Shown: positions 12,518 to 31,527 of the stretch, one piece after another
Layout: every line of letters begins with the position of its first letter
Numbering within the stretch: position 1 is the first letter of the stretch
NCBI GenBank assembly: GCA_028714955.1
Contig: JAQTLK010000005.1
Location: 8,997-45,826 of the forward strand
Length of the DNA stretch: 36,830 nucleotides
Reading direction: 5' to 3'
Source: Sulfuricella sp.
GTDB taxonomy: Bacteria; Pseudomonadota; Gammaproteobacteria; Burkholderiales; Sulfuricellaceae
Made by a program: the position numbers and the translations under genes
Notes under the pieces: generated by a model
Told to the model about the DNA's origin: nothing
The model's input: the letters and a program-made list of their open reading frames with translations, nothing else
Databases searched by the model: none

Positions 12518-13093
12518 ATGCTTAACGCGCTTCTGGTGATGATCGGTCTGGCCGTGGCATTGGGCGCGGTGCTCGGTTTTGCTTCTCTCAAGTTCAAGGT
12601 GGAAGGCAACCCCCTGGTGGAGAAAGTCGATGCCATCCTGCCCCAGATCCAGTGCGGGCAGTGCGGCTTTCCCGGATGCAAACCCTATGCCGAGGCGATC
12701 GCCAGCGGCAAGGCGGCGATCAATTTGTGCGCGCCCGGCGGCGAGGCAGTCATGAAGCGCCTGGCCGACCTGCTGGGCGTCGAGCCGCAACCGCTCGCCG
12801 CCGAGGCGGCACGGCCCAAGCCCAAGCAGGTGGCACTGATCGACGAGCAGATTTGCATCGGCTGCACCTTGTGTTTCCAGGCCTGCCCGGTGGATGCCAT
12901 TGTCGGCGCGGCGAAGCAGGTGCATACCGTCCTCGATTCGGAATGTACCGGTTGCGAACTGTGTTTGCCGCCCTGTCCGGTGGACTGCATCACCATGGTG
13001 CCGGTGGAAGAGGGGCTGAACGGCTGGAAATGGAATTACCCGGTGTATCCGATCAGCGATGATGCCAGGAAGGATGTCGAGGTGACGTCATGA
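12518..13093 (+). CDS. rnfB: Rnf complex ferredoxin subunit B
   Basis: Electron-entry subunit, 191 aa, anchored by an N-terminal hydrophobic segment (about residues 2-25). The Fe-S domain follows with [15 protein letters not shown] and a fourth Cys in [10 protein letters not shown]. Two 4Fe-4S ferredoxin motifs come next: [16 protein letters not shown] and [16 protein letters not shown]. Starts 8 bases after rnfA and overlaps rnfC by ATGA. Length fits the short proteobacterial RnfB with two ferredoxin clusters rather than the longer clostridial form. Confidence 0.95.
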
Positions 13094-14742
13094 GAACGCT
13101 GCACCCCTTCCATGGCGGCATCCATCCGCCCGAGCACAAAAGCCAGTCCACGCGACAGGGAATCGCCGCCGCGCCATTGCCGGCGCGCCTCGTCGTGCCG
13201 CTGCGCCAGCATAACGGCAACCCCGCCAGGCCGGTGGTGGCGGTGGGCGACCACGTACTCAAGGGGCAAATGATTGGCGCCCCCGAGGGCTTCATTTCGG
13301 CGGCTGTGCATGCGCCCGCCTCGGGCCGTGTCATGGCCATCGAAATGCAGCCGATCCCCCATCCCTCGGGCCTGCCGGACGTGAGTGTGGTGCTTGAGCC
13401 AGATGGCGAGGAGCGCTGGATCGAGCGCCAGGCCATCGATTATCGCGCCATCGACCCCGCCGACCTGCGCAATCGCCTGCGTGACGCCGGCGTCGTGGGC
13501 CTCGGCGGGGCGGTGTTTCCCAGCCATATAAAACTGGATGCCAGCGGCCTCGAAACGCTGGTGATCAATGCCGCCGAATGCGAGCCATACATCACCTGCG
13601 ACGACATGCTGATGCGCGAACGCGCGGCGGAAGTGGTGCAGGGCATTGCCATCATGCAGCATGTCATGGCGGCCAGGGAAGTGCTGATCGGCATCGAGGA
13701 CAACAAGCCGGAGGCCATATCAGCGATGCAGGCGGCCTGCCAGGGAAGCGGATTCGAGGTGGTGACGGTGCCGACGCTTTATCCCAGCGGCAGCGCCAAG
13801 CAATTGATCAAGCTGCTTACCGGCAAGGAAGTGCCGAGTGGCGCGCTGGCGCCGCAGGTCGGCGTGCAATGCTTCAACGTCGCCACGGCCTATACCATCC
13901 ATCGCGCGGTAAACCACGGCGAACCGGTCATATCGCGCATCGTGACGCTGACCGGCAACATGGAGGAACCGCGCAACTATGAAGTGCTGATCGGCACGCC
14001 GGTCGGCGAACTGGTCAAAGTGGCCAAGCCTCGCGCGGATACCAGCGGCTACCTCATGGGGGGGCCGATGATGGGGTTGCCCCTGACGGACCCGGGCGTG
14101 CCGGTGGTGAAGGCGACCAACTGCATCATTGCCACTTCGGCAGAGCTTTTTCCGCCGCCGCCGCGCGCCATGCCCTGCATCCGCTGCACCCGTTGCGCGC
14201 AGGCCTGTCCCGCGGACTTGCAACCGCAGGAACTGTTCTGGTTCGCCAAGGCGAAAAATTTCGCCAAGGCCCAGGAATACCAGCTGTTTGATTGCATCGA
14301 ATGCGGCTGCTGCAACTACGTATGTCCCAGCCATATCCCGCTGGTGCAGTTCTATCGCTTTGCCAAGAGCGAAATCCATGCTCAGGAGCGTGACAGGAAA
14401 GCCTCCGAACGGGCGCGCGAACGCCACGAGTTCAGGGAGTTTCGCCTGGAGCGCGAGAAACAGGAAAAAGCCGCCAAGCACGCGGCCAAGGCGGCGCAAG
14501 CCGCTGCGAGTCCGGATGGAGGGAGCGGCGATGAAGCGGCGGCCAAAAAGGCAGCCATTCAGGCCGCGATCGATCGCGCCAAAGCCAAAAAGGCCGCCGT
14601 GACGCCGCAGAACGTGGACGACCTGCCGCCGGAAGCGCAGGCTAAAATAGACGAAATCGAGGAAAGGCGAACCCACGCCAGGGAAAGCGCCGGGCAGGCC
14701 GCAGCGGTGCAGAAATCCGATGAAGGGCAGGGCGCATCGTGA
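13090..14742 (+). CDS. rnfC: Rnf complex NADH/ferredoxin-binding subunit C
   Basis: Peripheral cytoplasmic subunit that binds NAD(H) and FMN and carries two 4Fe-4S clusters, 550 aa. Order: N-terminal barrel-sandwich domain ([14 protein letters not shown] near the start), the NADH-dehydrogenase 51-kDa-like FMN/NADH domain with [13 protein letters not shown] and [13 protein letters not shown], the SLBB region, then cluster motifs [15 protein letters not shown] and [16 protein letters not shown] Lys/Ala/Glu-rich tail occupies about residues 430-550, typical of gammaproteobacterial and betaproteobacterial RnfC. ATG 13090 overlaps the rnfB stop. Confidence 0.95.
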
Positions 14743-14773
14743 ACCGGCCTCCGATGTTTATCCCTATGGTCAT

Positions 14774-14795
14774 TGCGAGCAAAGACAGGCTCGCA
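14774..14795 (+). repeat. hairpin in the rnfC-rnfD spacer
   Basis: TGCGAGC (14774-14780), 8-base loop, GCTCGCA (14789-14795), just upstream of the AGGAAC ribosome-binding site of rnfD. The surrounding CATTGCGAGC resembles a common dispersed intergenic repeat. It is the only sizeable gap (64 bases) in an otherwise tightly packed operon. Confidence 0.5.
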
Positions 14796-14806
14796 TCAGG
14801 AACGGC

Positions 14807-15847
14807 ATGAACTCACCTCTAGTGGCGGAAAAAACCGCCGTCAACTTCATCATGCTCAAGGTGCTGGCCGCTTTGCTGCCGGCAATTGCCGCATACGTGT
14901 ACTTTTTCGGGCCGGCGATCCTGGTCAGCATCGCCCTGGCAAGCGTTACGGCGCTGGCCAGCGAAGCGGCGGTGCTGCATTTGCGCCATTACCCGTTGCG
15001 GGTTTACCTCACCGACGGCAGCGCGCTGGTGACGGCCTGGCTGCTGGCGCTTTCCATCCCGCCTTTGGCGCCGTGGTGGCTGATCGTGGTTGGCACGCTG
15101 TTCGCCATCCTGGTCGCCAAGCACCTCTACGGCGGGCTGGGCAACAATCTCTTCAATCCCGCCATGGTCGGATTCGCCGCGCTGATGATTTCCTTCCCCT
15201 CGCATATGACGCACTGGACGGCGCCCGACGTGCTGGCGCACAGCCACTGGAGCTTTGCCCAGCAGATGGATTTCATGTTCGGCGGCATCTCTCCGGCGGA
15301 TAGCAAGCTCGATGCGGTCACCATGGCGACGCCGCTGGATACCCTGAAAACCCAGCTTCACCTCGAACGCACCGTGGCCGAAATCCAGTCTTCGCCGATT
15401 TTCAGCACGCTCAGCGGCAAGGGAACGGAAATCATCGCCCTGCTTTACCTGCTGGGCGGCCTCTTTTTGTGGCAGCAGCGCATCATCAGCTGGCACATCC
15501 CGGCATCTTTCCTCGCGGCCATGTTCGGCCTGGCCGGCCTGTTTTACCTGTACGATCCCGTGCATTATGCTTCGCCGCTGTTCCATCTTTTCGCTGGCGG
15601 CACCATGCTGGGGGCTTTCTTCATTGCCACCGACTATGTCACCAGCCCCACCACGCCGCTGGGCAAGCTGATTTTCGGCGCGGGAATAGGCGTGTGCGCC
15701 TATGTCATCCGCGTGCTGGGCGGCTATCCCGACGGCATCGCCTTTGCCGTGTTGTTCCTCAATTCCGCCGTGCCGCTGATCGATGCCTATACCCAGCCGC
15801 GCGTGTTCGGCCACGCTGGCAAGTGGTTCAATGGGAGGAAGGAATGA
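14807..15847 (+). CDS. rnfD: Rnf complex membrane subunit D
   Basis: Integral membrane subunit with covalently bound FMN, 346 aa, about nine or ten hydrophobic segments. The flavin-attachment region is LDAVTMATPLDTLK (Thr in the S/D-x-x-T-x-A-T pattern), and GGLGNNLFNPAMVGFA and ATDYVTSPTTPLGK are further family motifs. The start is ATG 14807 (MNSPLVAEK), with AGGAA about 6 bases upstream; the frame stays open back into rnfC but that part has no family match. It ends in an ATGA overlap with rnfG. Confidence 0.95.
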   Translation: MNSPLVAEKTAVNFIMLKVLAALLPAIAAYVYFFGPAILVSIALASVTALASEAAVLHLRHYPLRVYLTDGSALVTAWLLALSIPPLAPWWLIVVGTLFAILVAKHLYGGLGNNLFNPAMVGFAALMISFPSHMTHWTAPDVLAHSHWSFAQQMDFMFGGISPADSKLDAVTMATPLDTLKTQLHLERTVAEIQSSPIFSTLSGKGTEIIALLYLLGGLFLWQQRIISWHIPASFLAAMFGLAGLFYLYDPVHYASPLFHLFAGGTMLGAFFIATDYVTSPTTPLGKLIFGAGIGVCAYVIRVLGGYPDGIAFAVLFLNSAVPLIDAYTQPRVFGHAGKWFNGRKE

Positions 15848-16488
15848 GTTCCGGCTATTTCCGCCATTCCGTCAAGCTGGCGCTGGTGCTTGCGGCCTTT
15901 GCGCTGGTCGGAACATCGTTGCTGGCGCTGACTTACGACGCCACCAAGGGCATCATTGCCGCCAGTGAAAAGCGGGCCAAGCTGGCACTGATCGCCCAGA
16001 TCCTGCCACCCGAACTGTACGATAACGACATCATCAGCGATGCGGTCAGTTTGCCGCCGCAAGCCGAGCTCGGCACCTCTGAGGCCACGCTGACCTACCG
16101 CGCGCTCAAGGACGGCAAGCCATCGGGCGCGGTGCTGGAGGCGGTGGCGCCCGACGGTTACGCGGGCAAGATCAAGATGCTCATCGCCATCAGGGCGAAT
16201 GGGGAGATTTCCGGCGTGCGCGTGGTGTCGCACAAGGAAACTCCGGGGCTGGGCGACTACATCGACATCGCCAAAAGCAACTGGATAAAAATTTTCGATG
16301 GCACTTCACTGGAAAAATATCCTTCCAATGAGTGGAAGGTGAAAAAAGACGGCGGACGATTCGATTCCGTCGCCGGTGCGACGATCACGCCGCGAGCCAT
16401 GGTCAAGGCCGTGCACAAGGCGCTGATCTATTTTTCTGCCAACCGGGAGAAGATCTTTTCTCTCCAGGCAAAGGAGCAAGCGAAATGA
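15844..16488 (+). CDS. rnfG: Rnf complex flavoprotein subunit G
   Basis: Membrane-anchored periplasmic flavoprotein of the complex, 214 aa. One N-terminal membrane segment (about residues 10-30, LALVLAAFALVGTSLLAL) is followed by the FMN-binding domain. The covalent FMN motif is SVAGATITP, with the acceptor Thr at about residue 182, and HKETPGLGDYI is a conserved upstream motif. ATG 15844 overlaps the rnfD stop, and its stop overlaps the rnfE start (ATGA). Confidence 0.95.
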   Translation: MSSGYFRHSVKLALVLAAFALVGTSLLALTYDATKGIIAASEKRAKLALIAQILPPELYDNDIISDAVSLPPQAELGTSEATLTYRALKDGKPSGAVLEAVAPDGYAGKIKMLIAIRANGEISGVRVVSHKETPGLGDYIDIAKSNWIKIFDGTSLEKYPSNEWKVKKDGGRFDSVAGATITPRAMVKAVHKALIYFSANREKIFSLQAKEQAK

Positions 16489-17174
16489 GTACCGTGAACT
16501 ACAAGGAAATCGTCTGGAACGGACTGTGGAAAAACAACGCCGGCATCGTGGCCCTGCTCGGGCTGTGCCCATTGCTCGCCGTGAGTACGAGCGTGGTCAA
16601 CGGCGTTGGGCTGGGAATTGCCACCATCATGGTGATGACCTGCAGCAACGCCATCGTCTCCCTGGTGCGCCAGTGGGTGCCGGGCGAGATTCGCATCCCG
16701 GTCTATATCCTCATCATCGCCGTGCTGGTAACCGTCATCGACCTCGCCATGAACGCCTATGTGCAGGCTTTGTACCTGGTGCTGGGGATTTTCGTGCCGC
16801 TCATCGTGGTGAACTGCAACGTGCTTGGCCGCGCCGAAGCTTTTGCCTCGAAGAATCCGGTGTTCCCTGCCATGGTGGATGGCTTCATGGTCGGCCTGGG
16901 TTTGACCCTGATCCTGGCCGTGCTGGGCGGCATGCGCGAGATTCTCGGCAAGGGCACCTTGCTGTCCGGCATCGATCTTGCGTTCGGCGCATCCGCCAAG
17001 GCCTGGGTGATTACGGTGATCCCGGATTACCACGGCTTTCTGCTCGCCATCTTGCCGCCCGGCGCCTTTATCGGGCTGGGCCTGCTGATCGCGGGGAAAA
17101 ACTGGCTCGACCAGCGCCAGAGGGCCAAACCCCAACCGCTTCACGTGCCTGAAGCTTCAGCCATGACCGCATAG
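16485..17174 (+). CDS. rnfE: Rnf complex membrane subunit E
   Basis: Integral membrane subunit, homologous to RnfA in inverted topology, 229 aa. NNAGIVALLGLCPLLAVSTSV and VPLIVVNCNVLGRAEAFA carry the Cys that pair with those of RnfA at the membrane iron-sulfur centre. Six hydrophobic segments are visible. The C-terminal tail is polar. Start ATG 16485 overlaps rnfG. Last rnf gene; nth begins 11 bases later, an association seen in many proteobacteria. Confidence 0.95.
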   Translation: MSTVNYKEIVWNGLWKNNAGIVALLGLCPLLAVSTSVVNGVGLGIATIMVMTCSNAIVSLVRQWVPGEIRIPVYILIIAVLVTVIDLAMNAYVQALYLVLGIFVPLIVVNCNVLGRAEAFASKNPVFPAMVDGFMVGLGLTLILAVLGGMREILGKGTLLSGIDLAFGASAKAWVITVIPDYHGFLLAILPPGAFIGLGLLIAGKNWLDQRQRAKPQPLHVPEASAMTA

Positions 17175-17185
17175 CCGGGTTTTTC

Positions 17186-17821
17186 ATGAACGCTGCCAAG
17201 CGCCGGGAAATATTCACCCGTTTCCAGCATGCGAATCCCCACCCCACCACCGAACTGGCGTACCACACGCCATTTGAGCTGCTGGTGGCCGTGATATTGT
17301 CGGCACAGGCGACCGACAAGGGCGTGAATCTTGCCACGGCCAAACTGTTCCCCGTCGCCAATACGCCGCAGGCCATGCTCGAACTGGGGCTGGACGGGCT
17401 GAAGGAATACATCAACACCATCGGGCTTTACAACAGCAAGGCCAAGCACCTGATCGAAACCTGCCGCATCCTGGTCGAGCAGCATGGCGGCGAGGTGCCG
17501 GCCAGCCGCGAAGCGCTGGAGAAACTCCCCGGCGTGGGGCGCAAGACGGCCAACGTCATATTGAACACCGCGTTCGGCCAGCCCACCATCGCCGTGGACA
17601 CGCATATCTTCCGCGTCGCCAATCGTACCGGGCTTGCGCCAGGCAAGACCGTGCTCGAGGTGGAAAGAAAGCTGTTGCAAGTCATCGAGCCGCAATTCCT
17701 GCACGATGCCCATCATTGGCTGCTTCTGCACGGGCGCTACGTGTGCAAGGCGCGCAAGCCGCTGTGCGGCAAATGCCTGATTCGCGACTTGTGCGAATAT
17801 AAAGACAAGACTCCGGCTTGA
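17186..17821 (+). CDS. nth: endonuclease III
   Basis: Bifunctional DNA glycosylase/AP lyase removing oxidised pyrimidines in base-excision repair, 211 aa. The helix-hairpin-helix LPGVGRKTANVI supplies catalytic Lys120, and Asp138 lies in VDTHIFRVANR; both sit at the same numbers as in E. coli Nth. The C-terminal 4Fe-4S cluster ligands are Cys187-x6-Cys194-x2-Cys197-x5-Cys203. ATG 17186 follows rnfE by 11 bases, so it is probably co-transcribed with rnf. Confidence 0.97.
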   Translation: MNAAKRREIFTRFQHANPHPTTELAYHTPFELLVAVILSAQATDKGVNLATAKLFPVANTPQAMLELGLDGLKEYINTIGLYNSKAKHLIETCRILVEQHGGEVPASREALEKLPGVGRKTANVILNTAFGQPTIAVDTHIFRVANRTGLAPGKTVLEVERKLLQVIEPQFLHDAHHWLLLHGRYVCKARKPLCGKCLIRDLCEYKDKTPA

Positions 17822-17823
17822 CC

Positions 17824-18915
17824 ATGGCCATTGCCACCGGCATTGCCACCCATTCCGTCGCCAGCGAAAGCCTGGCGTATCAGGCTGTCTCCAGTGCCAT
17901 GCAAAAGGCCGGGCTGAGCATAGCCAGCAGCGTGCTGCTGTTCCTGACGCCCGAGTTCGCCCGCGATCCGCTGCCCGCGCTGCATGCCGCGGCCAGGGCC
18001 GCGAGTTGCACGCAGATCGTCGGCTGCAGTGCCGCCGGCATTCTTACCGAGGCGGACTGGGTGCTGGATGCCCCGGCAGCCGCCGCGATGGTGTTCGGCC
18101 CTGGCGTGAGCCTGGAAGCGATGCGCGAGGCGCCAGGCAATGAACTGCTGCTTACCCTGGCGGCGCCCAATGCCATTCATACCGAGTGGCTGGACCAGCC
18201 CGGACGGCGCTTCGGCGGGGTTTCCGGCGATGCCACCGGGCAGGGGCCGTTTGGCGTGTGGCAGGGCGGCAGGGTAGCGCAAATCGGGCGTTGCGAAGTG
18301 GCCATGCGCGGGGCTGAAGGCGTGGTCGGCGTGTCGCGCGGCGTTCGCCCACTGAGTCAGAGGCCCTTTGCCGTGACGCAGTCCGCGGGTCTCGATGTCC
18401 AGAGGCTGGCAGGACAGCCGGCGCTCAACGTGCTGAAGCGCGAACTGCCGCTGGAGCTGTGCACGGACGATCCCTTTCCGCTTCACCTCATCATGGCAGG
18501 CATTGCTGACGGCGACCCTGCCACGGCGATTGCCGAAGGCCGTTACCGTTTGGCCCCGGTCATTTCAGTCAACTCGCGGGATGGCTCGGTTACCCTTTCC
18601 GTCCGCCCGTCCTCGGGAGAGCAGTTGTTCTGGGGCATGCGCCAGCCGCTGGCTGCCGAGAACGACATGCGCCTCATGCTCGAACGCCTGCACCAAAAAC
18701 TGGGCGGAACCCCGGATTTCGGCCTGTGTTTCCCCTGCATGGGGCGTGGCCCCTACTTCTACGGCGGGGTGGACCGGGATTTGCGGCTCATCCAGCAGCG
18801 TTTCCCCGGCATGCCGTTGATCGGTTTTTACGGCAACGGTGAAATTGCGCCGTTTAACGGCAGCAACCAGTTGTTCCAATATGCCGCCGTGGTGGGCTTG
18901 TTTCGCCATGTTTAA
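17824..18915 (+). CDS. stand-alone FIST-domain protein
   Basis: Contains the FIST_N (about residues 35-220) and FIST_C (about 225-350) sensory domains, which are predicted to bind small ligands such as amino acids. 363 aa with no kinase, cyclase or methyl-accepting output domain attached. Recognisable segments are IVGCSAAGILTE, GGVSGDA, and near the end CFPCMGRGPYFYGG and PLIGFYGNGEIAP, which are characteristic of FIST_C. The start chosen is ATG 17824, two bases after the nth stop; a TTG at 17818 overlapping nth is possible. It overlaps the DUF1841 gene by 8 bases, so the three genes form one transcription unit. Confidence 0.88.
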   Translation: MAIATGIATHSVASESLAYQAVSSAMQKAGLSIASSVLLFLTPEFARDPLPALHAAARAASCTQIVGCSAAGILTEADWVLDAPAAAAMVFGPGVSLEAMREAPGNELLLTLAAPNAIHTEWLDQPGRRFGGVSGDATGQGPFGVWQGGRVAQIGRCEVAMRGAEGVVGVSRGVRPLSQRPFAVTQSAGLDVQRLAGQPALNVLKRELPLELCTDDPFPLHLIMAGIADGDPATAIAEGRYRLAPVISVNSRDGSVTLSVRPSSGEQLFWGMRQPLAAENDMRLMLERLHQKLGGTPDFGLCFPCMGRGPYFYGGVDRDLRLIQQRFPGMPLIGFYGNGEIAPFNGSNQLFQYAAVVGLFRHV

Positions 18916-22702: not shown

Positions 22703-23341
22703 TTACGTGGCCTGGCCGTAAGTTTTGAACTTTCCCAGCACCACGTCCATTTCCGCATCGGGAAGCAGGTTCGGCGTGCCAATCTGCAGCGCCAGGCAAT
22801 ACTGTTCGCACAGGCTTTCCACTTCGATTGCCAGTGCCAGGGCGCGATCCAGGCTGGATTCCGCTACCAGCAGGCCGTGGTTGGCGAGCAGGCAGGCCTT
22901 GCGTCCTTCCATGGCGGCAAGGGCGTGGTCGGACAGCGCCTGCGTGCCGAAAGTCGCGTAGGGCGCGCAGCGGATGGTTTTGCCGCCGGCTGCCGCGATC
23001 ATGTAGTGGAAAGGGGGAATGTCGCGGCCCAGGCAGGCGAGGGTGGTGGCGAAGGTGGCATGGGCGTGCAGCACGGCGCCAAATTCCGGCCGCGCGACGT
23101 AAAGGTCGCGATGAAAGCGCCATTCGCTCGAAGGCTTGCGCGTGCCCCGGACGTTGCCGCCCATATCCATCCACACCACATCGTCCGCGCGCTGCTCAGT
23201 GGCGGACATGCCCGATGGCGTCACCAGGAATCCGTCGCCGCAGCGCACGCTGAGGTTGCCCGAAGCGCCCCGGTTCAATTTTTCGCGTTGTGCCGCAAGG
23301 GCGGTGTCAATCAGCGCGCGGCGCAGTTCTGCTTCCTTCAT
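22703..23341 (-). CDS. class II aldolase (FucA/Ald2-like), probable methylthioribulose-1-phosphate aldolase
   Basis: Zinc-dependent class II aldolase, 212 aa. GNLSVR and TPSGM form the phosphate-binding region, [11 protein letters not shown] carries the catalytic Glu, [13 protein letters not shown] gives the first two zinc His and LLANHGLLV the third. The pattern is that of fuculose-phosphate aldolase rather than MtnB dehydratase. Because its ATG at 23341 overlaps the mtnA stop (ATGA), the likely substrate is 5-methylthioribulose-1-phosphate (or 5-deoxyribulose-1-phosphate), cleaved to DHAP and an aldehyde as in the DHAP shunt described for Rhodospirillum rubrum and some E. coli. Family is certain; substrate is inferred from the neighbour. 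Confidence 0.88.
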
Positions 23342-24429
23342 CGCTTGCGCTCCGGGTACAGTCCCAGCAGCCCTTCCCGCGATGCCAGGCAGACGCCGCG
23401 TTCGGTGATCAGGCCGGTGACCAGACGCGCCGGGGTGACGTCGAAGGCGTAATTGGCTGCCGGGCTGCCGTGGGGCGTGAGCGTGACCGTCGCCAGTTCG
23501 CCTTCCGCGGTGCGGCCGCGGATTTGTGTGACTTCCTGCGCATCGCGCTGCTCGATGGGGATGTCGCGCACGCCGTTTTCCAGCGTCCAGTCGATGGTGG
23601 GGCCGGGCAGGGCGACGTAAAAAGGGATCTGGTTGTCGCGGGCGGCCAGCGCTTTCAGGTAGGTGCCGATCTTGTTGCACACGTCGCCGCAGGCGGTGGT
23701 GCGGTCGGTGCCGACGATCACCATGTCCACCATGCCGTGCTGCATCAGGTGGCCGCCGGTATTGTCGGCAATCACGGTATGCGGGACGCCGTGCTGCAGG
23801 AGTTCCCAGGCCGTAAGGCTGGCGCCCTGGTTGCGCGGGCGGGTTTCGTCCACCCATACGTGGACCGGGATGCCGGCGTCGAAGGCGGCGTAAATGGGCG
23901 CCAGCGCGGTCCCCCAGTCCACCGTGGCGAGCCAGCCGGCGTTGCAGTGGGTGAGGATGTTGACCGGTTCGCCCTTGGCCTCCAGCATGGCTCGGATCAG
24001 TTGCAGGCCGTGTTCGCCGATGGCGCGGTTGATTTTCACGTCCTCGTCGCAGAGCGCGGCGGCGGCCCGCCATGCGTCCCGGGGGCGATTGCCGGGCGGC
24101 AGCGGCAGAAGCAGGGCGCGCATGCGCGCCAGCGCCCAGCCCAGGTTGATGGCGGTGGGCCGGGTCGCGGCGAGGGTGGCGCAGGCTTCTTCCAGCGCCG
24201 CATCGGAGGTTTTGTCGCTCATGGCCAGCGCCACGCCATAGGCCGCCGTCGCGCCGATCAGCGGGGCGCCGCGCACCAGCATGTTCTTGATGGCAATGGC
24301 GGCGTCGTGAAGGTTTTCGAGGCGCAGCGTGACAAACTCGTGCGGCAGCCGCGTCTGGTCGATGATTTCAACCGCCACTCCATCCTCGGCGGGCCAGATG
24401 GTGCGGTAGGGAATGCCTTCAATGTTCAC
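23338..24429 (-). CDS. mtnA: S-methyl-5-thioribose-1-phosphate isomerase
   Basis: Isomerase converting methylthioribose-1-phosphate to methylthioribulose-1-phosphate in 5'-methylthioadenosine recycling, 363 aa, related to eIF2B subunits. Family motifs: [19 protein letters not shown] near the N terminus, [23 protein letters not shown] with the catalytic Cys, [20 protein letters not shown] and [20 protein letters not shown] with the catalytic Asp. It starts at ATG 24429 after a repeat-bearing spacer. It precedes the aldolase gene with a 4-base overlap. None of the other universal methionine-salvage genes (mtnB, C, D, K) is in the window. Confidence 0.95.
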
Positions 24430-24606: not shown

Positions 24607-27300
24607 TCACAGCATCTTGCTGACATTCTTGATGCTTTCGTCTTCCGGACTGGTTTCGATGTTGAAGCCCAGGCGCGTCATCAGCTTCAGCATGTTGCGG
24701 TTGTTGCCGAGCACTTCGCCTTCCATGACTTTCAGCCCCTTGGAGCGGGCGGCGTCCATCAGCGCGGTCATCAGTTTCTGGCCGAGCCCCTTGCCGCGCA
24801 TGGCATCCGCGACGACCAGGGCGAATTCGCAGCTTTCCCCGTCCGGGTTGATGGAGAAGCGCGTCACGCCCAGTTCCATTTCCTTGCCATGTTCCTGGGT
24901 CACGGCGATCAGGGCCATTTCGCGGCTGTAGTCGATTTGCGTGAAGCGCGACAGCATGTCCGGGGTGAGCTCCTGCACGCTGCGCATGAAGCGGAAATAG
25001 CGCGATTCCTCGGACAGGTCGTGCACGAATGCCTGTTCGAGCTCGGCATCTTCCGGGCGGATGGGGCGGATGGTGATGTCGGTGCCGTCCGCCAGTTGCC
25101 ACTTGCTGACCAGGTGCGTCGGGTAGGGATAAATCGCCATGTGGGCGTAGCGGTCCGGGTTGGGCTGGCGGTATTCCACCACCACGCGCGCATCGGCGGC
25201 CAGCACGCCGTTTTCGTCCACGATCAGCGGGTTGATGTCCATTTCCATCAGCAGCGGCAGCTCGCACACCATTTCCGACACGCGCAGCAGCACGCTTTCG
25301 AGCGCCGCCATGTCGGCCGGCGGCATGTGGCGGAAGGCGCCCAGCATCCTGGAGACGTGGGTGCCGTGGATGAGATCCTTGACCAGGAAATGGTTGAGCG
25401 GCGGCAGGGTGACGGCGCGGTCGCCCATGATTTCCACCGTGGTGCCGCCGGCGCCGAAGGTGATGACCGGGCCGAACACCGGGTCGCTGGTCACGCCGAC
25501 CATCAGTTCGCGGCCATTGGGCTTGACGATCATGGGCTCGATCGAAATGCCGTCCATGCGCGCGCCGGGACGGTTGCGCTGCACATTTTCCATGATCTCG
25601 TGGTACGCGGCGCGCACCGCCTGGGCATTGCCGAGATTGAGCCGCACGCCGCCGGCATCGGTCTTGTGGCTGATGTCGGGCGAATTGACCTTCATCGCCA
25701 CCGGGAAGCCCAGTTGCTCGGCAATCAGCAGCGCCTCGTTGGGCGTGCGGGCCACCATGGTTTTCGCCACAGGGATGTGGAAGGCCGACAGCAGCGCCTT
25801 GGATTCCATCTCGTTGAGCACCTTGCGGCGCTCCAGCAGGGCGCCTTCGATCACCATGCGCGCGCCCGCCACGTCGGGCTCGACCTGGTCGGAGAGCGGG
25901 CCGGGCATCTGCATCAGCAATTTCTGGTTGCGGTAATAGTCCGAGAGATAGGAAAACACTTCCACCGCCGGTTCCGGCGTGCGGAAACTGGGTTTTCTGG
26001 CCTTGGTGAAGGCGAGGCGCGCTTCGGCCACCTGGGATTCGCCCATCCAGCAGGCCAGCAGGGGCTTGCTGTATTGGCCGGCGAGCTCGATCACCGTGTT
26101 GGCCGCTTCCAGCGGCCGGGTCATGGCCTGGGGAGTGAGAATGGCGAGCACGCCGTCCACGTTCGGATCTTCCAGGCAGGCCTTGACCGCATGGTGGTAA
26201 CGCTCGGCCTGCGCGTCGCCGATGATGTCCACCGGGTTACTGTGCGGCCAGTTGGGCGGCAGGACGTGGTTGAGCCGTTCGATGGTGCTGTCCGAAAGCG
26301 TGGCAATTTCCAGCCCCAGGTCCACGGCGCGGTCGGTGGCCATCACGCCCGGACCGCCGCCATTGGTGACGATGGCAAGACGGTTGCCGACCGGACGGAA
26401 GCCGGACGAAAGCGCCTTGGCGGCGGCGAACAGCTGGGTGATGGTCTGCACCCGCACCACGCCGGCGCGGCGCACGGCGGCGTCGAACACGTCGTCCGAG
26501 CCCACCAGCGAGGCGGTGTGCGACATGGCCGCCTTGGATCCGGCGGCGTGACGCCCCACCTTGACCAGAATCACCGGCTTGATGCGCGCGGCGGCGCGGA
26601 TAGAGCTCATGAAGCTGCGCGCGTTGCGGATGCCTTCGATGTACAGCAGGATGTTCTGGGTCTTGTTGTCCGAGACCAGGTAGTCGAGGATTTCTCCGAA
26701 GTCCACGTCGGCGGAGGAGCCCATCGATACCACGCTGGAGAAGCCGACATCGTTGCTCTGCGCCCAGTCCAGAATGGCGGTGCAGAGCGCGCCGGATTGC
26801 GACACGAAAGCGAGATTGCCGCTATTCGCGCCGCCCTTGTTGAAAGTGGCGTTGAGACCGATGGAAGGGCGCATTACGCCGAGGCAATTGGGGCCGATCA
26901 GGCGGATGCCGTGGCGGCTGGCATTCTCCAGCACGGCACGCTCCAGCGCCTGGCCTTTGGGACCGGTTTCGCCAAAACCGGCGGTGATGATGACCGCCGC
27001 CTTGACGCCATGCTTGCCGCAATCCTCGATGATGTCGGGCACGGTCTGGGGCGGCGTGGCGATGACCACCAGTTCAACCGCCTCGCCGATTTCGGCGATC
27101 GTGGGGTAGGCTTTCCTGCCCTGAATTTCCGCGCTCTTCGGATTGATGGGGTAAAGGCCGCCCTGGTAGCCGCTTTCCAGCATGTTCTGAAAGACGATCT
27201 GGCCGATCGAGTCGATGCGGTCGCTGGCGCCAAACACCGCGACGGACTTGGGCGCGAAAAGGGGACTGAGGTAATGTTGACCCATGATTTTGCGATCCAA
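24607..27300 (-). CDS. acyl-CoA synthetase (NDP-forming)-like/GNAT fusion, Pat-like protein acetyltransferase
   Basis: A large fusion of up to 897 aa. Order: CoA-binding domain (about residues 10-140, SVAVFGASDR), succinyl-CoA-ligase-like domains (about 145-460), ATP-grasp (about 490-710, with LLIAEQLGFPVAMKVNSPDISHKTDAGGV), then a C-terminal GNAT domain (about 735-890) with acetyl-CoA loop RGKGLGQKLM. Salmonella Pat (YfiQ) has this layout and acetylates the active-site lysine of acetyl-CoA synthetase. The segment AMSHTASLVGSDD keeps a His where NDP-forming synthetases carry the phospho-His, so residual ligase activity cannot be excluded. The start is either TTG 27300 or, more likely, ATG 27285 (MGQHYLSP). 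It diverges from an HDAC-like gene. Confidence 0.92.
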   Translation of the reverse strand: MDRKIMGQHYLSPLFAPKSVAVFGASDRIDSIGQIVFQNMLESGYQGGLYPINPKSAEIQGRKAYPTIAEIGEAVELVVIATPPQTVPDIIEDCGKHGVKAAVIITAGFGETGPKGQALERAVLENASRHGIRLIGPNCLGVMRPSIGLNATFNKGGANSGNLAFVSQSGALCTAILDWAQSNDVGFSSVVSMGSSADVDFGEILDYLVSDNKTQNILLYIEGIRNARSFMSSIRAAARIKPVILVKVGRHAAGSKAAMSHTASLVGSDDVFDAAVRRAGVVRVQTITQLFAAAKALSSGFRPVGNRLAIVTNGGGPGVMATDRAVDLGLEIATLSDSTIERLNHVLPPNWPHSNPVDIIGDAQAERYHHAVKACLEDPNVDGVLAILTPQAMTRPLEAANTVIELAGQYSKPLLACWMGESQVAEARLAFTKARKPSFRTPEPAVEVFSYLSDYYRNQKLLMQMPGPLSDQVEPDVAGARMVIEGALLERRKVLNEMESKALLSAFHIPVAKTMVARTPNEALLIAEQLGFPVAMKVNSPDISHKTDAGGVRLNLGNAQAVRAAYHEIMENVQRNRPGARMDGISIEPMIVKPNGRELMVGVTSDPVFGPVITFGAGGTTVEIMGDRAVTLPPLNHFLVKDLIHGTHVSRMLGAFRHMPPADMAALESVLLRVSEMVCELPLLMEMDINPLIVDENGVLAADARVVVEYRQPNPDRYAHMAIYPYPTHLVSKWQLADGTDITIRPIRPEDAELEQAFVHDLSEESRYFRFMRSVQELTPDMLSRFTQIDYSREMALIAVTQEHGKEMELGVTRFSINPDGESCEFALVVADAMRGKGLGQKLMTALMDAARSKGLKVMEGEVLGNNRNMLKLMTRLGFNIETSPEDESIKNVSKML

Positions 27301-27314
27301 ATGAAAGAGGGGGT

Positions 27315-27320
27315 ATTATA
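27315..27320 (-). promoter_or_regulatory. TATAAT -10 element for the synthetase/GNAT gene
   Basis: A perfect TATAAT on the minus strand, about 30 bases upstream of ATG 27285. No good -35 hexamer lies 16-18 bases further; an activator-type promoter is possible, with the palindrome at 27338-27348 nearby. Confidence 0.45.
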
Positions 27321-27337
27321 AGAACCGATTGTGACCA

Positions 27338-27376
27338 TTGTGCCACAAAATATGACCCCCCAGTCTTGTACAAGAC
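27338..27376. promoter_or_regulatory. two palindromes in the acetyltransferase-deacetylase divergent spacer
   Basis: TTGTG-C-CACAA (27338-27348) and the perfect 14-bp palindrome GTCTTGTACAAGAC (27363-27376) lie in an 84-base spacer. The second ends 8 bases before the deacetylase ATG, over the expected ribosome-binding region. Both look like dimeric-regulator sites; the regulators are unknown. Confidence 0.5.
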
Positions 27377-27384
27377 CGTTAACG

Positions 27385-28308
27385 ATGCATACTGCTTACA
27401 TCACCCATCCCGCCTGCCTCAAGCACGACATGGGCGCCGATCATCCGGAGAGTCCGGCGCGCATCACGGCAATCGAAGACCAGTTGATCGCGTCCGGCCT
27501 GTTGCCGTTTCTCGATCACCATGAAGCGCCGCGCGCCAGCGATGAACAACTGGCGCGCGTGCATGAACGCGGCTATATCCGCATGGTGTTCGATCAGGCG
27601 CCGAGCGCGGGCCTGGTTTACCTTGACGGCGACACGGCGATGAACCCCCATAGTCTCGAAGCCGCGCTGCGTGCCGCCGGGGCGGCGGTGCTCGGGGTGG
27701 AGCTGAGCATGTCGGGCCGGGCGGAGAACGCCTTTTGCAATATCCGCCCGCCCGGCCATCATGCCGGGCGCAGCAGCAGCGGCGGCTTCTGCATTTTCAA
27801 CAACGTGGCGGTGGCCGCGGCGCATGCGCTTGAACAGCATGGCCTGCAGCGCGTGGCTATCGCCGATTTCGACGTGCATCACGGTAACGGGACGGAGGAC
27901 ATCTTTCACGACGACCCGCGCGTGATGCTGTGTTCCACTTTCCGCCATCCCTATTACCCTTATTGCGGCGCCGACAGCGGCAACGAGCACATCATCAACG
28001 TGCCGCTTCCCGCCGGCACGGCGGGGGAGAGTTTCCGCGCGGCGGTGATGGAGCAGTGGTTCCCGGCCCTGGAGCGCTTCAGGCCAGAAATGTTGCTGGT
28101 TTCAGCCGGGTTCGACGCGCACCGCGAGGATGACATGGGCGGGTTCGCGCTGAGGGAGGCCGATTACATCTGGATAACCGAAAGACTCAAGGATATCGCC
28201 GCCCGCCATGCCGCCGGCCGCATCGTTTCGGTGCTGGAGGGCGGCTACGCCCTGCATGCGCTGGGACGCAGCGCGGTGGCGCATATCAGGGTGCTGAGCG
28301 GATTGTGA
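27385..28308 (+). CDS. histone-deacetylase-family amidohydrolase (HDAC/HDAH-like)
   Basis: Zinc-dependent deacetylase fold, 307 aa, of the arginase/deacetylase superfamily, closest in pattern to bacterial class II HDAC homologues (HDAH, acetylpolyamine hydrolase, AcuC). Motifs: RPPGHHAG with the catalytic His pair, IADFDVHHGNGT with zinc Asp and His, SAGFDAHRED with the second zinc Asp, and VLEGGYAL with the Tyr that polarises the substrate carbonyl. The catalytic set is complete. The start taken is ATG 27385 (MHTAYITHPACLKHD), matching the family N terminus; the open frame to 27331 lies across promoter-like palindromes. It heads an operon with archease (GTGA overlap). The substrate may be acetyl-lysine proteins, acetylpolyamines or another amide. 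Confidence 0.92.
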   Translation: MHTAYITHPACLKHDMGADHPESPARITAIEDQLIASGLLPFLDHHEAPRASDEQLARVHERGYIRMVFDQAPSAGLVYLDGDTAMNPHSLEAALRAAGAAVLGVELSMSGRAENAFCNIRPPGHHAGRSSSGGFCIFNNVAVAAAHALEQHGLQRVAIADFDVHHGNGTEDIFHDDPRVMLCSTFRHPYYPYCGADSGNEHIINVPLPAGTAGESFRAAVMEQWFPALERFRPEMLLVSAGFDAHREDDMGGFALREADYIWITERLKDIAARHAAGRIVSVLEGGYALHALGRSAVAHIRVLSGL

Positions 28309-28712
28309 GCTTCGACTATTTCGAGCACGATGCCGACATCGGCGTCATCGGCCGTGGCGCGACGCTGGAGGAGGCGTTCGAAGGCGCTGCCGAGGGTATG
28401 TTTGCAATCATGGCGGATGCCGCCCAGGTCAGGCCGCTGGTGCAGTTCGCGTTTGCCTTTGCCGAAGACGATGTGGAACTGGCCCTGGTGACCTGGCTCA
28501 ATCGCCTGCTGGCGGAGGCGCGGCAGCGGGGCCTGGCGCTGGCGCGCTTCAGGCTGAAGCGCGTTGATGGCCAGTGGCAGGGGGAAGCCTGGGGCGCGCC
28601 GTGGGGTGCGAACATGGAGCGCGGTACCGAGGTCAAGGGTGCGACCCTGACCATGCTGCGTGTCGGGCAGAGCGAGGGGGCCTGGGAAGCCCGCTGCGTG
28701 GTGGATGTATGA
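28305..28712 (+). CDS. archease
   Basis: Small activator protein, 135 aa, that promotes guanylylation and multiple turnover of the RNA ligase RtcB. The N-terminal metal-site motif YFEHDADIGV and the C-terminal acidic residue in ARCVVDV are present, along with the EDDVELALVTWLNRLLAEA helix typical of the family. It starts with GTG 28305 overlapping the deacetylase stop. Location directly upstream of rtcB (55-base gap) supports the identity strongly. Confidence 0.92.
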   Translation: MSFDYFEHDADIGVIGRGATLEEAFEGAAEGMFAIMADAAQVRPLVQFAFAFAEDDVELALVTWLNRLLAEARQRGLALARFRLKRVDGQWQGEAWGAPWGANMERGTEVKGATLTMLRVGQSEGAWEARCVVDV

Positions 28713-28767
28713 GTTCAGCCCTCAGCTATCAGCCGTCAGTAAAACCATTAAAAACCGGGAACTGAGC

Positions 28768-30201
28768 ATGGATATATCCCGCCTGCAAAAAATTGATGCC
28801 TGTAGCTGGATCGTGCCCCTGCGCGCCGGGGAAAAACGCGCCCCGGCGATTCTCTACGGCAGCGAATCCCTGCTGGCCGGCATGGACGACAAGGTGCTGG
28901 AGCAGATCACCAACGTGGCTTGCCTGCCGGGCCTGGTGGGCAGCGCCATGACCATGCCCGACGCGCACTGGGGTTATGGCTTCCCGATCGGCGGCGTGGC
29001 GGCGTTCGACCCCGAGCTGGGCGGCATCATTTCGGCGGGCGGCGTGGGCTTCGATATCTCCTGCGGCATTCGCTGCCTGCGCAGCAACCTCGATCTCCAG
29101 CACATCGCGCCGCACCTGGAAAAACTGGCGGATGCCTTGTTCCGCGCCATTCCGGCAGGGGTGGGCGAGGAGGGCAGGCTGAGACTGACGCCTGCCCAGT
29201 TGAATGAGGTGCTGACGGGTGGCGCGCAATGGGCGGTGCAGCATGGTTATGGCCACGCGGATGAGCTGGAATATATCGAGGAGCACGGCCGCATGGCAGG
29301 CGCCGTGCCGGGCAACGTGTCCGAGCTTGCCAAGAAGCGCCAGCGCGGCGAGATGGGCACGCTCGGATCGGGCAATCATTACCTGGAACTCCAGGTGGTG
29401 GAGAAAATTTTTGATCCTGCAACCGCCCAGGCTTTTGGCCTGCACCAGGGACAGCTCCTGATTTCCATCCATTGCGGCTCGCGCGGGCTGGGGCATCAGG
29501 TCGGCACCGACTATCTGCTTTCCCTCGCCAAGGCAGCGGGCCGTCTGGGCATTCGCCTCCCAGACCGCGAACTGGCCTGCGCACCGATCAACTCGCCGGA
29601 AGGCCAGGAGTATCTCGGCGCCATGAACGCCGCGATCAACGTGGCGCTGGCCAACCGCCAGATACTTGCCCACCTGACGCGCGAGGTGTTCGACGAAATC
29701 CTGCCGCAGGCGAGACTGGAAACGCTGTTCGATGTTTCACACAACACCTGCAAGCCGGAAAAGCACCAGGTGGACGGCAAGGAGCGCCTGCTCTACGTCC
29801 ACCGCAAGGGCGCCACGCGCGCCTTCGGCCCCGGCCATCCCGCCTTGCCGGCGCGCTACCGGGCGGCTGGGCAGCCGGTCATCATCGGCGGCAGCATGGG
29901 GACGGGCTCCTACGTGCTGGCCGGCACGAACGAGAGCGAGAGACGCGCCTTTTCCTCGGCCAGCCATGGCGCCGGGCGCGCCATGAGCCGCACCCAGGCG
30001 CTGAAGCGCTGGCAGGGAAAGGAGTTGATTCGCGATCTGGCCAGCAGGGGAATCCTGATCCGCACGCTATCCCTGCGCGGGGCGGCGGAAGAAGCGCCGG
30101 GTGCCTACAAGGACGTGGACGAAGTGGCGGCGGCGACGGAGCAGGCGGGGTTGGCGAGGCGCGTTGCCTTTTTGCGGCCCAAAGTATGCATCAAGGGATA
30201 A
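28768..30201 (+). CDS. rtcB: RNA-splicing ligase RtcB
   Basis: GTP- and Mn-dependent ligase joining 2',3'-cyclic phosphate (or 3'-phosphate) ends to 5'-OH ends, used in RNA repair, 477 aa. Mn ligand Cys99 lies in GVGFDISCGIR; further ligands are in GSGNHYLELQ, ISIHCGSRGLGHQ and FDVSHNTCK. The guanylate-accepting His400 is in SASHGAGRAMSR. The start at ATG 28768 (MDISRLQKID) is preceded by GGGA about 7 bases upstream. There is no RtcA cyclase and no RtcR regulator in the window, unlike the E. coli operon. It is followed 14 bases later by the phosphoribosyltransferase gene. Confidence 0.96.
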   Translation: MDISRLQKIDACSWIVPLRAGEKRAPAILYGSESLLAGMDDKVLEQITNVACLPGLVGSAMTMPDAHWGYGFPIGGVAAFDPELGGIISAGGVGFDISCGIRCLRSNLDLQHIAPHLEKLADALFRAIPAGVGEEGRLRLTPAQLNEVLTGGAQWAVQHGYGHADELEYIEEHGRMAGAVPGNVSELAKKRQRGEMGTLGSGNHYLELQVVEKIFDPATAQAFGLHQGQLLISIHCGSRGLGHQVGTDYLLSLAKAAGRLGIRLPDRELACAPINSPEGQEYLGAMNAAINVALANRQILAHLTREVFDEILPQARLETLFDVSHNTCKPEKHQVDGKERLLYVHRKGATRAFGPGHPALPARYRAAGQPVIIGGSMGTGSYVLAGTNESERRAFSSASHGAGRAMSRTQALKRWQGKELIRDLASRGILIRTLSLRGAAEEAPGAYKDVDEVAAATEQAGLARRVAFLRPKVCIKG

Positions 30202-30215
30202 AGGGAAGATAAATC

Positions 30216-30764
30216 ATGCTGGCCTCGGAAAAAGCCTGGGAAATTCTTCAAACGGCGGACCTTGTCCACTCTGCCCGGACTGTGTCCGACACCGTGCGGC
30301 GGCTGGCCGGGGAGATTTCTGCGCAAATGTCGGAGCAGCAGCCGCTGGTGCTTTGCGTGATGAGCGGAGCGACGGTGTTCGCCGGCCAGTTGCTGCCGCT
30401 GCTGGCGTTCCCCCTGGATTTCGATTACGTGCAGGTGTCGCGCTATGGCGATGCTATCCGCGGCGGACAAATGGTGTGGAAAGTACCGCCGCCCGTGAGT
30501 GTCAAAGGGCGGGTGGTGCTGTTGCTGGATGATATTCTGGACGAGGGGATCACCCTGGCGGAAATTCACGCCAGCGTGCTGGAACTGGGGGCAACTGAAT
30601 GTTACAGCGCTGTTTTCGCCGACAAGGACAGCGTCCACACCAAGCCGATTCGTGCCGATTTCGTCGGCTTGCGCGTGCCTGACCGTTATGTGTTCGGTTT
30701 CGGCATGGATGTGCACGGCGCGTGGCGCAATCTCCCCGCGATTTATGCCTTGAAGGAAAACTAA
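30216..30764 (+). CDS. purine (hypoxanthine/guanine) phosphoribosyltransferase
   Basis: Cytoplasmic salvage enzyme converting hypoxanthine or guanine plus PRPP to IMP or GMP, 182 aa. The PRPP loop is VVLLLDDILDEGITLAE (about residues 103-119), LVLCVMSGATVFAGQLL corresponds to the pyrophosphate loop, and DFVGLRVPDRYVFGFGMD is the base-binding and flexible-loop end of HPRT-type enzymes. ATG 30216 has AAGGGAAG about 7 bases upstream. One base separates it from the phosphorylase gene, so the two are coupled. Together they could release hypoxanthine from methylthioinosine and recapture it as IMP. Confidence 0.93.
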   Translation: MLASEKAWEILQTADLVHSARTVSDTVRRLAGEISAQMSEQQPLVLCVMSGATVFAGQLLPLLAFPLDFDYVQVSRYGDAIRGGQMVWKVPPPVSVKGRVVLLLDDILDEGITLAEIHASVLELGATECYSAVFADKDSVHTKPIRADFVGLRVPDRYVFGFGMDVHGAWRNLPAIYALKEN

Positions 30765-30765
30765 T

Positions 30766-31527
30766 ATGCTTGGAATTATCGGCGGCAGCGGCCTGACGCA
30801 GATGCCGGATCTTCAGGACGTTCGCCGCAAAGTGGTGCGCACGCCGTTTGGCGATCCATCGGGCCCCCTGACATTCGGCCGGGTCAACGGGCATGAGGTG
30901 GTGTTCCTGGCGCGTCACGGCTATGGCCATACCATTCCTCCCCATGCCGTGAATTACCGCGCCAACCTCTGGGCGCTGCATGCCCAGGGCGTGAAGGAGG
31001 TGCTCTCCATCGCCACGGTAGGCGGTATTCATGCCGACCTGGTGCCGGGCACGATCGTATTTCCCGACCAGATCATCGATTACACCTGGGGGCGCAGTTC
31101 GAGCTACCAGGATTGCCAGGAAACGTATGGCGCCAAACCGGTCGTGCACCTTGATTTTACCTGGCCCTACTGCGAGGAAATGCGTCAGATCGGCATGAAT
31201 GCCTGCCGGCTGGCGGGAGAAAAGTATGTCGATGGCGGCGTCTATGCCGCGGTGCAGGGTCCGCGCCTCGAAACGGTGGCGGAAATCAATCGCCTGGAAC
31301 GCGACGGCGCCACCATGGTGGGCATGACCGGCATGCCGGAAGCCATTCTGGCCAGGGAGGTCGGCCTGTGTTATGCGGCGCTCGCGGTTTCGGCCAATCA
31401 TGCCGCCGGGCGCGGTTCCAGCAAGGAGGCCATCCCCTACGAAGAGGTCGAGGCGGTGTTGGCGCGGGCGATGCAGCGCGTGCGCGGCGTGCTCGGGCAT
31501 CTGGTGGCACTGCATAACAATGAGTAG
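30766..31527 (+). CDS. mtnP: S-methyl-5'-thioinosine (or thioadenosine) phosphorylase
   Basis: Purine-nucleoside phosphorylase family, 253 aa, producing methylthioribose-1-phosphate and a free purine. The N-terminal IIGGSGLTQM, FLARHGYGHTIPPHAVNYRAN phosphate-binding region and GPRLETVAEINRLERDGATMVGMTGMPEA are family motifs. At the base-recognition site it reads SANHAAG (Asn211, Ala213), where adenine-specific MTA phosphorylases have Asp residues; the Pseudomonas aeruginosa methylthioinosine phosphorylase also has Asn there. That and the coupled HPRT gene favour methylthioinosine as substrate, with hypoxanthine released. Its product feeds MtnA, encoded 6 kb away. ATG 30766 is certain by spacing. 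Confidence 0.9.
   Translation: MLGIIGGSGLTQMPDLQDVRRKVVRTPFGDPSGPLTFGRVNGHEVVFLARHGYGHTIPPHAVNYRANLWALHAQGVKEVLSIATVGGIHADLVPGTIVFPDQIIDYTWGRSSSYQDCQETYGAKPVVHLDFTWPYCEEMRQIGMNACRLAGEKYVDGGVYAAVQGPRLETVAEINRLERDGATMVGMTGMPEAILAREVGLCYAALAVSANHAAGRGSSKEAIPYEEVEAVLARAMQRVRGVLGHLVALHNNE

Follow-up and report, generated by a model that had tools for sequence, protein, structure and literature searches.

What does a gene for a Pat-like acetyltransferase do next to one for a zinc-dependent deacetylase? This question is raised by positions 24607-28308 of a 36,830-nucleotide stretch of Sulfuricella sp. DNA (GenBank assembly GCA_028714955.1, contig JAQTLK010000005.1; this whole stretch is called the window). 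Reversible protein acetylation in Proteobacteria has mostly been described as the work of Pat together with the NAD-dependent sirtuin CobB. We think it probable, judging from sequence comparisons, that the pair in the window forms a sirtuin-independent switch for reversible lysine acetylation that is tied to the tricarboxylic acid (TCA) cycle. This proposal draws on what we observed of the domain layout and catalytic residues of the two proteins, their conserved proximity, the recurrence of an operator-like site, and the absence of sirtuin matches from the family sample. In the proposed mechanism, the Pat-like enzyme would sense the acyl-CoA or nucleotide state through its synthetase-like domains and acetylate target lysines with its GNAT domain, while the zinc deacetylase would strip these acetyl groups and stand in for CobB in Sulfuricellaceae. 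In the genus Sulfurimicrobium, the deacetylase promoter would further carry the operator of an SdhR-like GntR regulator, a second site for which would lie before the regulator's own gene.

The deacetylase and the Pat-like acetyltransferase

The locus consists of two genes transcribed away from each other:

24607-27285, minus strand: Pat-like acetyltransferase of type I layout, 892 aa (Pfam, PDB search, residue alignment)
27286-27384, no strand: divergent spacer, 99 bp (start-codon comparison, conserved blocks)
27385-28308, plus strand: zinc deacetylase, class II/HdaH-type, 307 aa (Pfam, PDB sequence and fold searches, alignment)

The acetyltransferase gene most likely starts at the ATG at 27285 and stops at 24607, since a TTG at 27300 reads CGG in G001 and CAG in G003 and is thus missing from two of the six sister genomes. 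Counted from this ATG, the spacer is longer than the 84 bases given in a preliminary description of the stretch, a figure obtained with the TTG as start.

The plus-strand protein belongs to the Hist_deacetyl family (Pfam, E 1.4e-85) and is the only such protein found in its own assembly (2.49 Mb, 91.2% complete, 127 contigs). The preliminary description had called it catalytically complete, and indeed the HH dyad (H125/H126), D163/H165/D244 and Y288 are all present and invariant across 23 orthologues. Its predicted model (pLDDT 94.5) adopts the arginase/deacetylase fold, with 5ji5 from Burkholderia phymatum as the top fold match (TM 0.97, 54% identity), followed by HdaH and HDAC6-type enzymes. 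Among the best 60 of 125 PDB sequence matches, 5ji5 scored 371 bits, PA HDAH 181, HDAC6 CD1 147 and 9gkz 120, and no entry was named as class I; by these 60 matches the protein is nearer to HdaH and HDAC6 than to AcuC/class I enzymes or acetylpolyamine hydrolases. It also contains both the RPPGHH and the EGGY motif, which a passage of Graf 2024 ties to robust deacetylation (PMC11532494). The enzyme presumably removes acetyl groups from lysines.

It seems unlikely to us that the deacetylase instead acts on acetylpolyamines or another small acetylamide, with the neighbouring GNAT domain acetylating the same molecule and the location among salvage genes reflecting polyamine metabolism. Polyamine synthesis yields methylthioadenosine as a by-product, and in Sulfurimicrobium the pair does sit between mtnA/mtnB-like genes and the gene of an MtnP-like phosphorylase. 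Outside the genus, however, these salvage genes are not found beside the pair, while Pat is. The gatekeeper residue, which a passage of Graf 2024 gives as Glu in polyamine-selective HDAC10, is hydrophobic here (M251), being Met or Leu and never Glu in 23 of 23 orthologues, although the same source mentions that some bacterial polyamine deacetylases likewise lack the Glu gatekeeper (PMC11532494). Moreover, the closest solved relatives are of HdaH/HDAC6 type, with the acetylpolyamine amidohydrolase 9gkz far below 5ji5 among the 60 matches considered, and type I Pats acetylate proteins according to a section of a 2021 review (PMC8556138).

On the minus strand, the Pfam domains CoA_binding, Succ_CoA_lig, Ligase_CoA_2, ATP-grasp_5 and a C-terminal GNAT follow one another in this order, in agreement with the synthetase-GNAT fusion of Pat layout recognised earlier. 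The best solved relatives are 9it0 and 9isq, both entitled 'Protein acetyltransferase' (578 bits over residues 1-882, PDB), and NDP-forming acyl-CoA ligases are also among them. E820 is present and aligns with the catalytic Glu E809 of E. coli PatZ. We infer that the protein acetylates protein lysines. H256 (in SHTASLVG) and H540 (in SPDISHK), the two acyl-CoA synthetase histidines, are both retained. A section of the 2021 review describes type I enzymes as having an inactive synthetase-like domain, with the catalytic histidine missing (PMC8556138); the window protein does not share this degenerate domain without catalytic His. Because H256 and H540 are kept, its synthetase domain may still be an enzyme, and for the same reason we call the protein Pat-like rather than a PatZ orthologue. 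Both histidines were also found in 44 of 47 HDAC-linked relatives and 17 of 22 unlinked ones, after three short linked Pats (G206, G062 and G106) had been dropped from these counts. The idea that retained histidines mark HDAC linkage was rejected, the difference not being significant (p 0.10).

These histidines could also mean that the large protein is chiefly an NDP-forming acyl-CoA synthetase, whose synthetase domain remakes acetyl-CoA from the acetate that the deacetylase frees. Consistent with such acyl salvage, the protein comes closest in NCBIfam to the acetate--CoA ligase alpha subunit, scoring slightly below the cut-off. We nevertheless consider this quite unlikely, since the histidines are retained independently of HDAC linkage, the catalytic Glu of the GNAT domain is kept, and the alignment with the protein acetyltransferases 9it0 and 9isq spans 882 residues.

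If the pair is a lysine-acetylation switch, its likeliest single target would be the AMP-forming acetyl-CoA synthetase, with other enzymes of central metabolism possible as well. No synthetase gene adjoins the pair, as had been noticed before, and the genome's one Acs above the TIGR02188 cut-off is encoded on another contig. Its C-terminal PKTRSGKIMR is intact and has the same core as the acetylation motif that a passage on B. subtilis AcsA gives, RSGKIMR. In five genomes of a sister genus (G008, G013, G015, G017 and G018), acs lies 10.5-15.2 kb from the pair, a proximity that probably goes back to one ancestral event.

Conservation of the pair and the distribution of sirtuins

In each of the 22 Sulfuricellaceae genomes sampled, the two genes diverge, with spacers of 96-219 bp (1,625 bp in G007), so that in close relatives the two genes are not unlinked and their conservation exceeds chance. 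At the level of the order we sampled 120 genomes, including the window's own; HDAC matches occurred in 111 and Pat matches in 109, and HDAC matches of less than 44% identity as well as synthetase matches without coverage of the GNAT part were dropped before counting. Both genes then remained in 74 genomes, 38 of which have them within 2.5 kb of each other (37 divergent and one, G078, with the HDAC gene ahead of the Pat gene). A sample of the class comprised 321 Gammaproteobacteria genomes, with 5 of 79 Pat genomes lacking the GNAT part and the weakest 7 of 93 HDAC genomes dropped; both genes are present in 61, Pat alone in 13, HDAC alone in 25 and neither in 222. The genes are at most 500 bp apart in 30 of the 61 genomes that hold both, and in 25 of 44 families. 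These linked pairs are mainly divergent (25), with four in which Pat precedes HDAC and two convergent ones (G206 and G329).

Among 80 named Pat loci, 64 are linked, 39 as divergent pairs and 25 with Pat ahead of HDAC at co-directional gaps of 2-158 bp; 13 have no HDAC gene despite at least 1 kb of sequence on each side, and three end at a contig edge. In 10 named loci whose Pat has no HDAC beside it, the neighbouring genes show no common partner. Gallionella, Sideroxydans, Methylotenera and others are among the relatives with Pat loci. The two genes thus occur in four arrangements (divergent, Pat before HDAC, HDAC before Pat, and convergent), which indicates that their proximity outlasts rearrangement. 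On a Pat tree (FastTree, 113 rows, long branches flagged), at least 15 changes are required among five states, namely the four orders and the unlinked state, and at least 11 when only linked and unlinked are distinguished. Although much of the linked set forms one clade on this tree and many genomes have the two genes apart, it is very unlikely that adjacency reflects mere inheritance without functional coupling, given the repeated changes among four gene orders, gaps as short as 2 bp between co-directional genes, the presence in G167 of two separate divergent pairs, and the loss of other neighbours while the pair stays.

The two divergent pairs of G167 (L212 and L213) differ from each other, and the Pat on L213 is a distant one in which neither synthetase histidine is present. 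Five loci (L150, L157, L159, L161 and L132), from metagenome-assembled genomes (MAGs) labelled Desulfobulbaceae or Desulfocapsaceae and from Methyloglobulus morosus, encode Pats 77-78% identical to that of the window, with no HDAC in the available sequence; such identity hints at horizontal transfer or at misassigned MAGs.

Around the pair, the window contains methionine-salvage-type genes on both sides, as elsewhere in Sulfurimicrobium: mtnA and a class II aldolase, mtnB-like gene at 22703-24429 (minus strand), and PRTase and MtnP-like phosphorylase genes at 30216-31527 (plus strand). Between the deacetylase and the latter lie archease and RtcB RNA ligase genes (28305-30201, plus strand, ends overlapping), and the deacetylase stop overlaps the archease start. 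Archease and RtcB also adjoin the pair in G002, G004 and G005. We rejected them as functional partners because the pair lacks these neighbours outside the genus and, within it, in G003, G006 and G007. In 24 linked regions of genomes belonging to other genera, none of the archease, RtcB, PRTase, MtnP-like, MtnA and MtnB-like genes occurs beside the pair. Farther away, the interval 13090-18915 contains Rnf-type genes (RnfC-like and RnfD-family), with a FIST-domain sensor gene downstream.

No SIR2 match was found in the 22 Sulfuricellaceae genomes, while 34 of the 120 genomes sampled from the order have one. Counting full-length SIR2 alone, this larger sample gave 2 of 38 linked genomes versus 18 of 36 unlinked ones; the former count becomes 6 of 38 if four genomes with partial matches alone are included. 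In the class sample, 17 of 31 unlinked genomes have SIR2 versus 8 of 30 linked ones, and counting by family gave 11 of 19 versus 5 of 25 (p 0.013). Since related genomes are not independent, these contrasts call for independent pairs, which did not uphold linkage as a general substitute for a sirtuin. That the HDAC replaces CobB is therefore a fair reading for Sulfuricellaceae and unproven as a general rule.

The spacer and its candidate operator

The spacer elements named in the preliminary description, two palindromes and a TATAAT, could all be located, and both palindromes fall within blocks conserved in seven genomes, the window's own and its six sisters in Sulfurimicrobium:

27320-27315, minus strand: TATAAT, -10 element for the acetyltransferase
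27329-27348, no strand: conserved block TTGTGACCATTGTGCCACAA, inverted repeat TTGTG-N10-CACAA, upstream of the acetyltransferase -10
27363-27376, no strand: perfect palindrome GTCTTGTACAAGAC, 14 bp (7+7), 8 nt before the deacetylase ATG

On the plus strand, the stretch of the TATAAT reads TATTAT, a candidate -10 for the deacetylase that scores 9 of 12 together with TTGCGA 18 nt upstream. Comparison with the six sisters shows three blocks to be kept: TATAAT/TATTAT, which is altered in G003; TGACCATTGTGCCACA, which has a single mismatch in one of the genomes; and GTCTT-N4-AAGAC, perfect in all seven. In the six sisters the palindrome reads GTCTTATATAAGAC, with ATAT at its centre where the window has GTAC, two symmetric changes that preserve the palindrome. 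The TTGTG/CACAA block, nearly unchanged in the seven genomes, is not known to match the site of any regulator. A CRP-like reading of TTGTG-N10-CACAA was set aside, the spacing being 2 bp too long for the consensus TGTGA-N6-TCACA. On the Pat strand, TGGCAC-N5-TCACA was considered as a sigma-54 promoter and likewise set aside, its -12 being poor by the consensus.

When the seven Sulfurimicrobium genomes were searched with the pattern GTCTTRTAYAAGAC, two to three sites were found in each, and a reversed-pattern control yielded none. All seven have one site in the Pat/HDAC spacer and one before a regulator gene, which encodes GntR and UTRA domains (as determined from one copy) and has malic enzyme and sdh genes nearby, as well as phosphoenolpyruvate carboxylase in G003. 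The two other sites of the window's own genome flank a run of N and resemble one site assembled twice. A third GTCTTATATAAGAC site lies beside a small gene in G006 (L172:6301) and G001 (L177:261); neither copy of this gene has an NCBIfam match and the G006 copy has no Pfam match, and it is possible that the gene is a further regulon member.

The core of the sisters' site is identical to that of the SdhR motif, for which the palindrome TCTTATGTCTTATATAAGACATAAGA is listed in a passage of a survey of GntR motifs from 2015 (PMC4494728). The palindrome in the spacer thus appears to be a candidate operator of an SdhR-like GntR/UTRA regulator; we infer both the identity of this regulator and its binding. 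A site so close to the start codon of the deacetylase would be in keeping with repression, and since the operator is shared with a locus near malic enzyme and succinate dehydrogenase genes, the supply of the eraser would follow the state of the TCA cycle. The earlier suggestion of joint control can accordingly be divided: the pairing itself is borne out by 22 of 22 family genomes, 25 of 44 families and four gene orders, whereas joint regulation is only plausible, as the operator-like site may govern the deacetylase alone.

Several observations weigh against a TCA-linked acetylation switch. The operator itself occurs in Sulfurimicrobium alone; five further genomes of the family contain weaker look-alikes (one mismatch in G011, three in G009, G010 and G018, and four in G012; those of G011 and G009 are at the same place). 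No operator was recognisable in other families, nor was one found upstream of acs, where even the best match departs from the operator at 4 of the 10 arm bases. Both genes are present but apart in 36 of 74 genomes of the order sample (G065, counted here, is undecidable, with both genes at contig ends) and in 31 of 61 of the class sample, and 25 genomes of the latter have an HDAC without Pat. Decayed Pat remnants lie beside an intact HDAC orthologue in G053 (L072:5585-5788) and G097 (L073:6929-7652), so that both genomes once had the linked pair and kept its eraser after this writer had decayed. With regard to sirtuins, the 8 of 30 linked class genomes mentioned above show coexistence, and a pairs test of linkage against SIR2 on the Pat tree had only four independent pairs to work with, too few to reach significance. 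SIR2 is moreover commoner with Pat (28 of 74) than without it (37 of 247) in the class sample, a positive association that counts against simple sirtuin replacement. Finally, cluster 1b HdaH enzymes failed to deacetylate acetylated AcsA, as a passage of Graf 2024 reports (PMC11532494).

Should the pair nonetheless work as a reversible acetylation switch, many sirtuin-poor lineages would remove acetyl groups with a zinc deacetylase insensitive to NAD, and the logic of the switch would therefore differ, with control exerted through acetyl-CoA sensing and transcription of the eraser. Bacterial HDAC-like enzymes without assigned substrates would also gain natural partners. A wider scheme is tentative and, in our view, doubtful: that the writer is bifunctional, combining an active synthetase with lysine acetyltransferase activity, that it has a permanent HDAC6-like partner as a sirtuin-free option, wired to SdhR in sulfur-oxidising betaproteobacteria, and that the whole is a widespread module of Proteobacteria, one that within the reach of our searches has gone unrecognised.

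Comparison with known systems

A literature search covering the pair, the two enzymes, AcuC systems, the operator, SdhR and the synthetase histidine returned no title or abstract opening that describes this pair, and each of its parts can be set beside a known system. The acetyltransferase has the domain order of E. coli PatZ and S. enterica Pat and aligns with E. coli PatZ over the full length at 36% identity, including the match of the catalytic Glu E809 to E820. E. coli PatZ has no counterpart of H256, whereas the window protein keeps both H256 and H540, and patZ of E. coli K-12 lies between tapT and pssL/pssA, while the Pat-like gene adjoins that of a zinc deacetylase.

The deacetylase shares with HdaH/HDAC6-type enzymes the fold (TM 0.97 to 5ji5), the zinc ligands, RPPGHH and EGGY. 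At 307 aa it is shorter than the P. aeruginosa and Bordetella/Alcaligenes HDAH chains among the best 60 of 125 matches (369-380 aa), and it differs from these enzymes in being encoded with a Pat.

With SdhR, a GntR regulator of the HutC subfamily, the Sulfurimicrobium system has in common the core GTCTTATATAAGAC in the sister genomes and a GntR+UTRA gene that lies near sdh and is preceded by a site of its own. The window copy has GTAC for ATAT, the outer arms that the survey reports for SdhR are absent at the spacer site, and the survey passage in question does not mention control of a Pat/HDAC pair (PMC4494728).

A parallel in gene content is acuABC-acsA of B. subtilis, in which, according to passages of a review, a GNAT acetyltransferase and a classical zinc deacetylase are likewise encoded together. 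There, AcuA is a small GNAT protein, AcuC belongs to class I/cluster 2 and the acsA gene lies alongside; the window instead has a large acetyltransferase of type I layout, a class II-like deacetylase and acs elsewhere. A linked acetyltransferase and classical deacetylase are thus known from acuABC, and here such a pair is assembled from different subfamilies.

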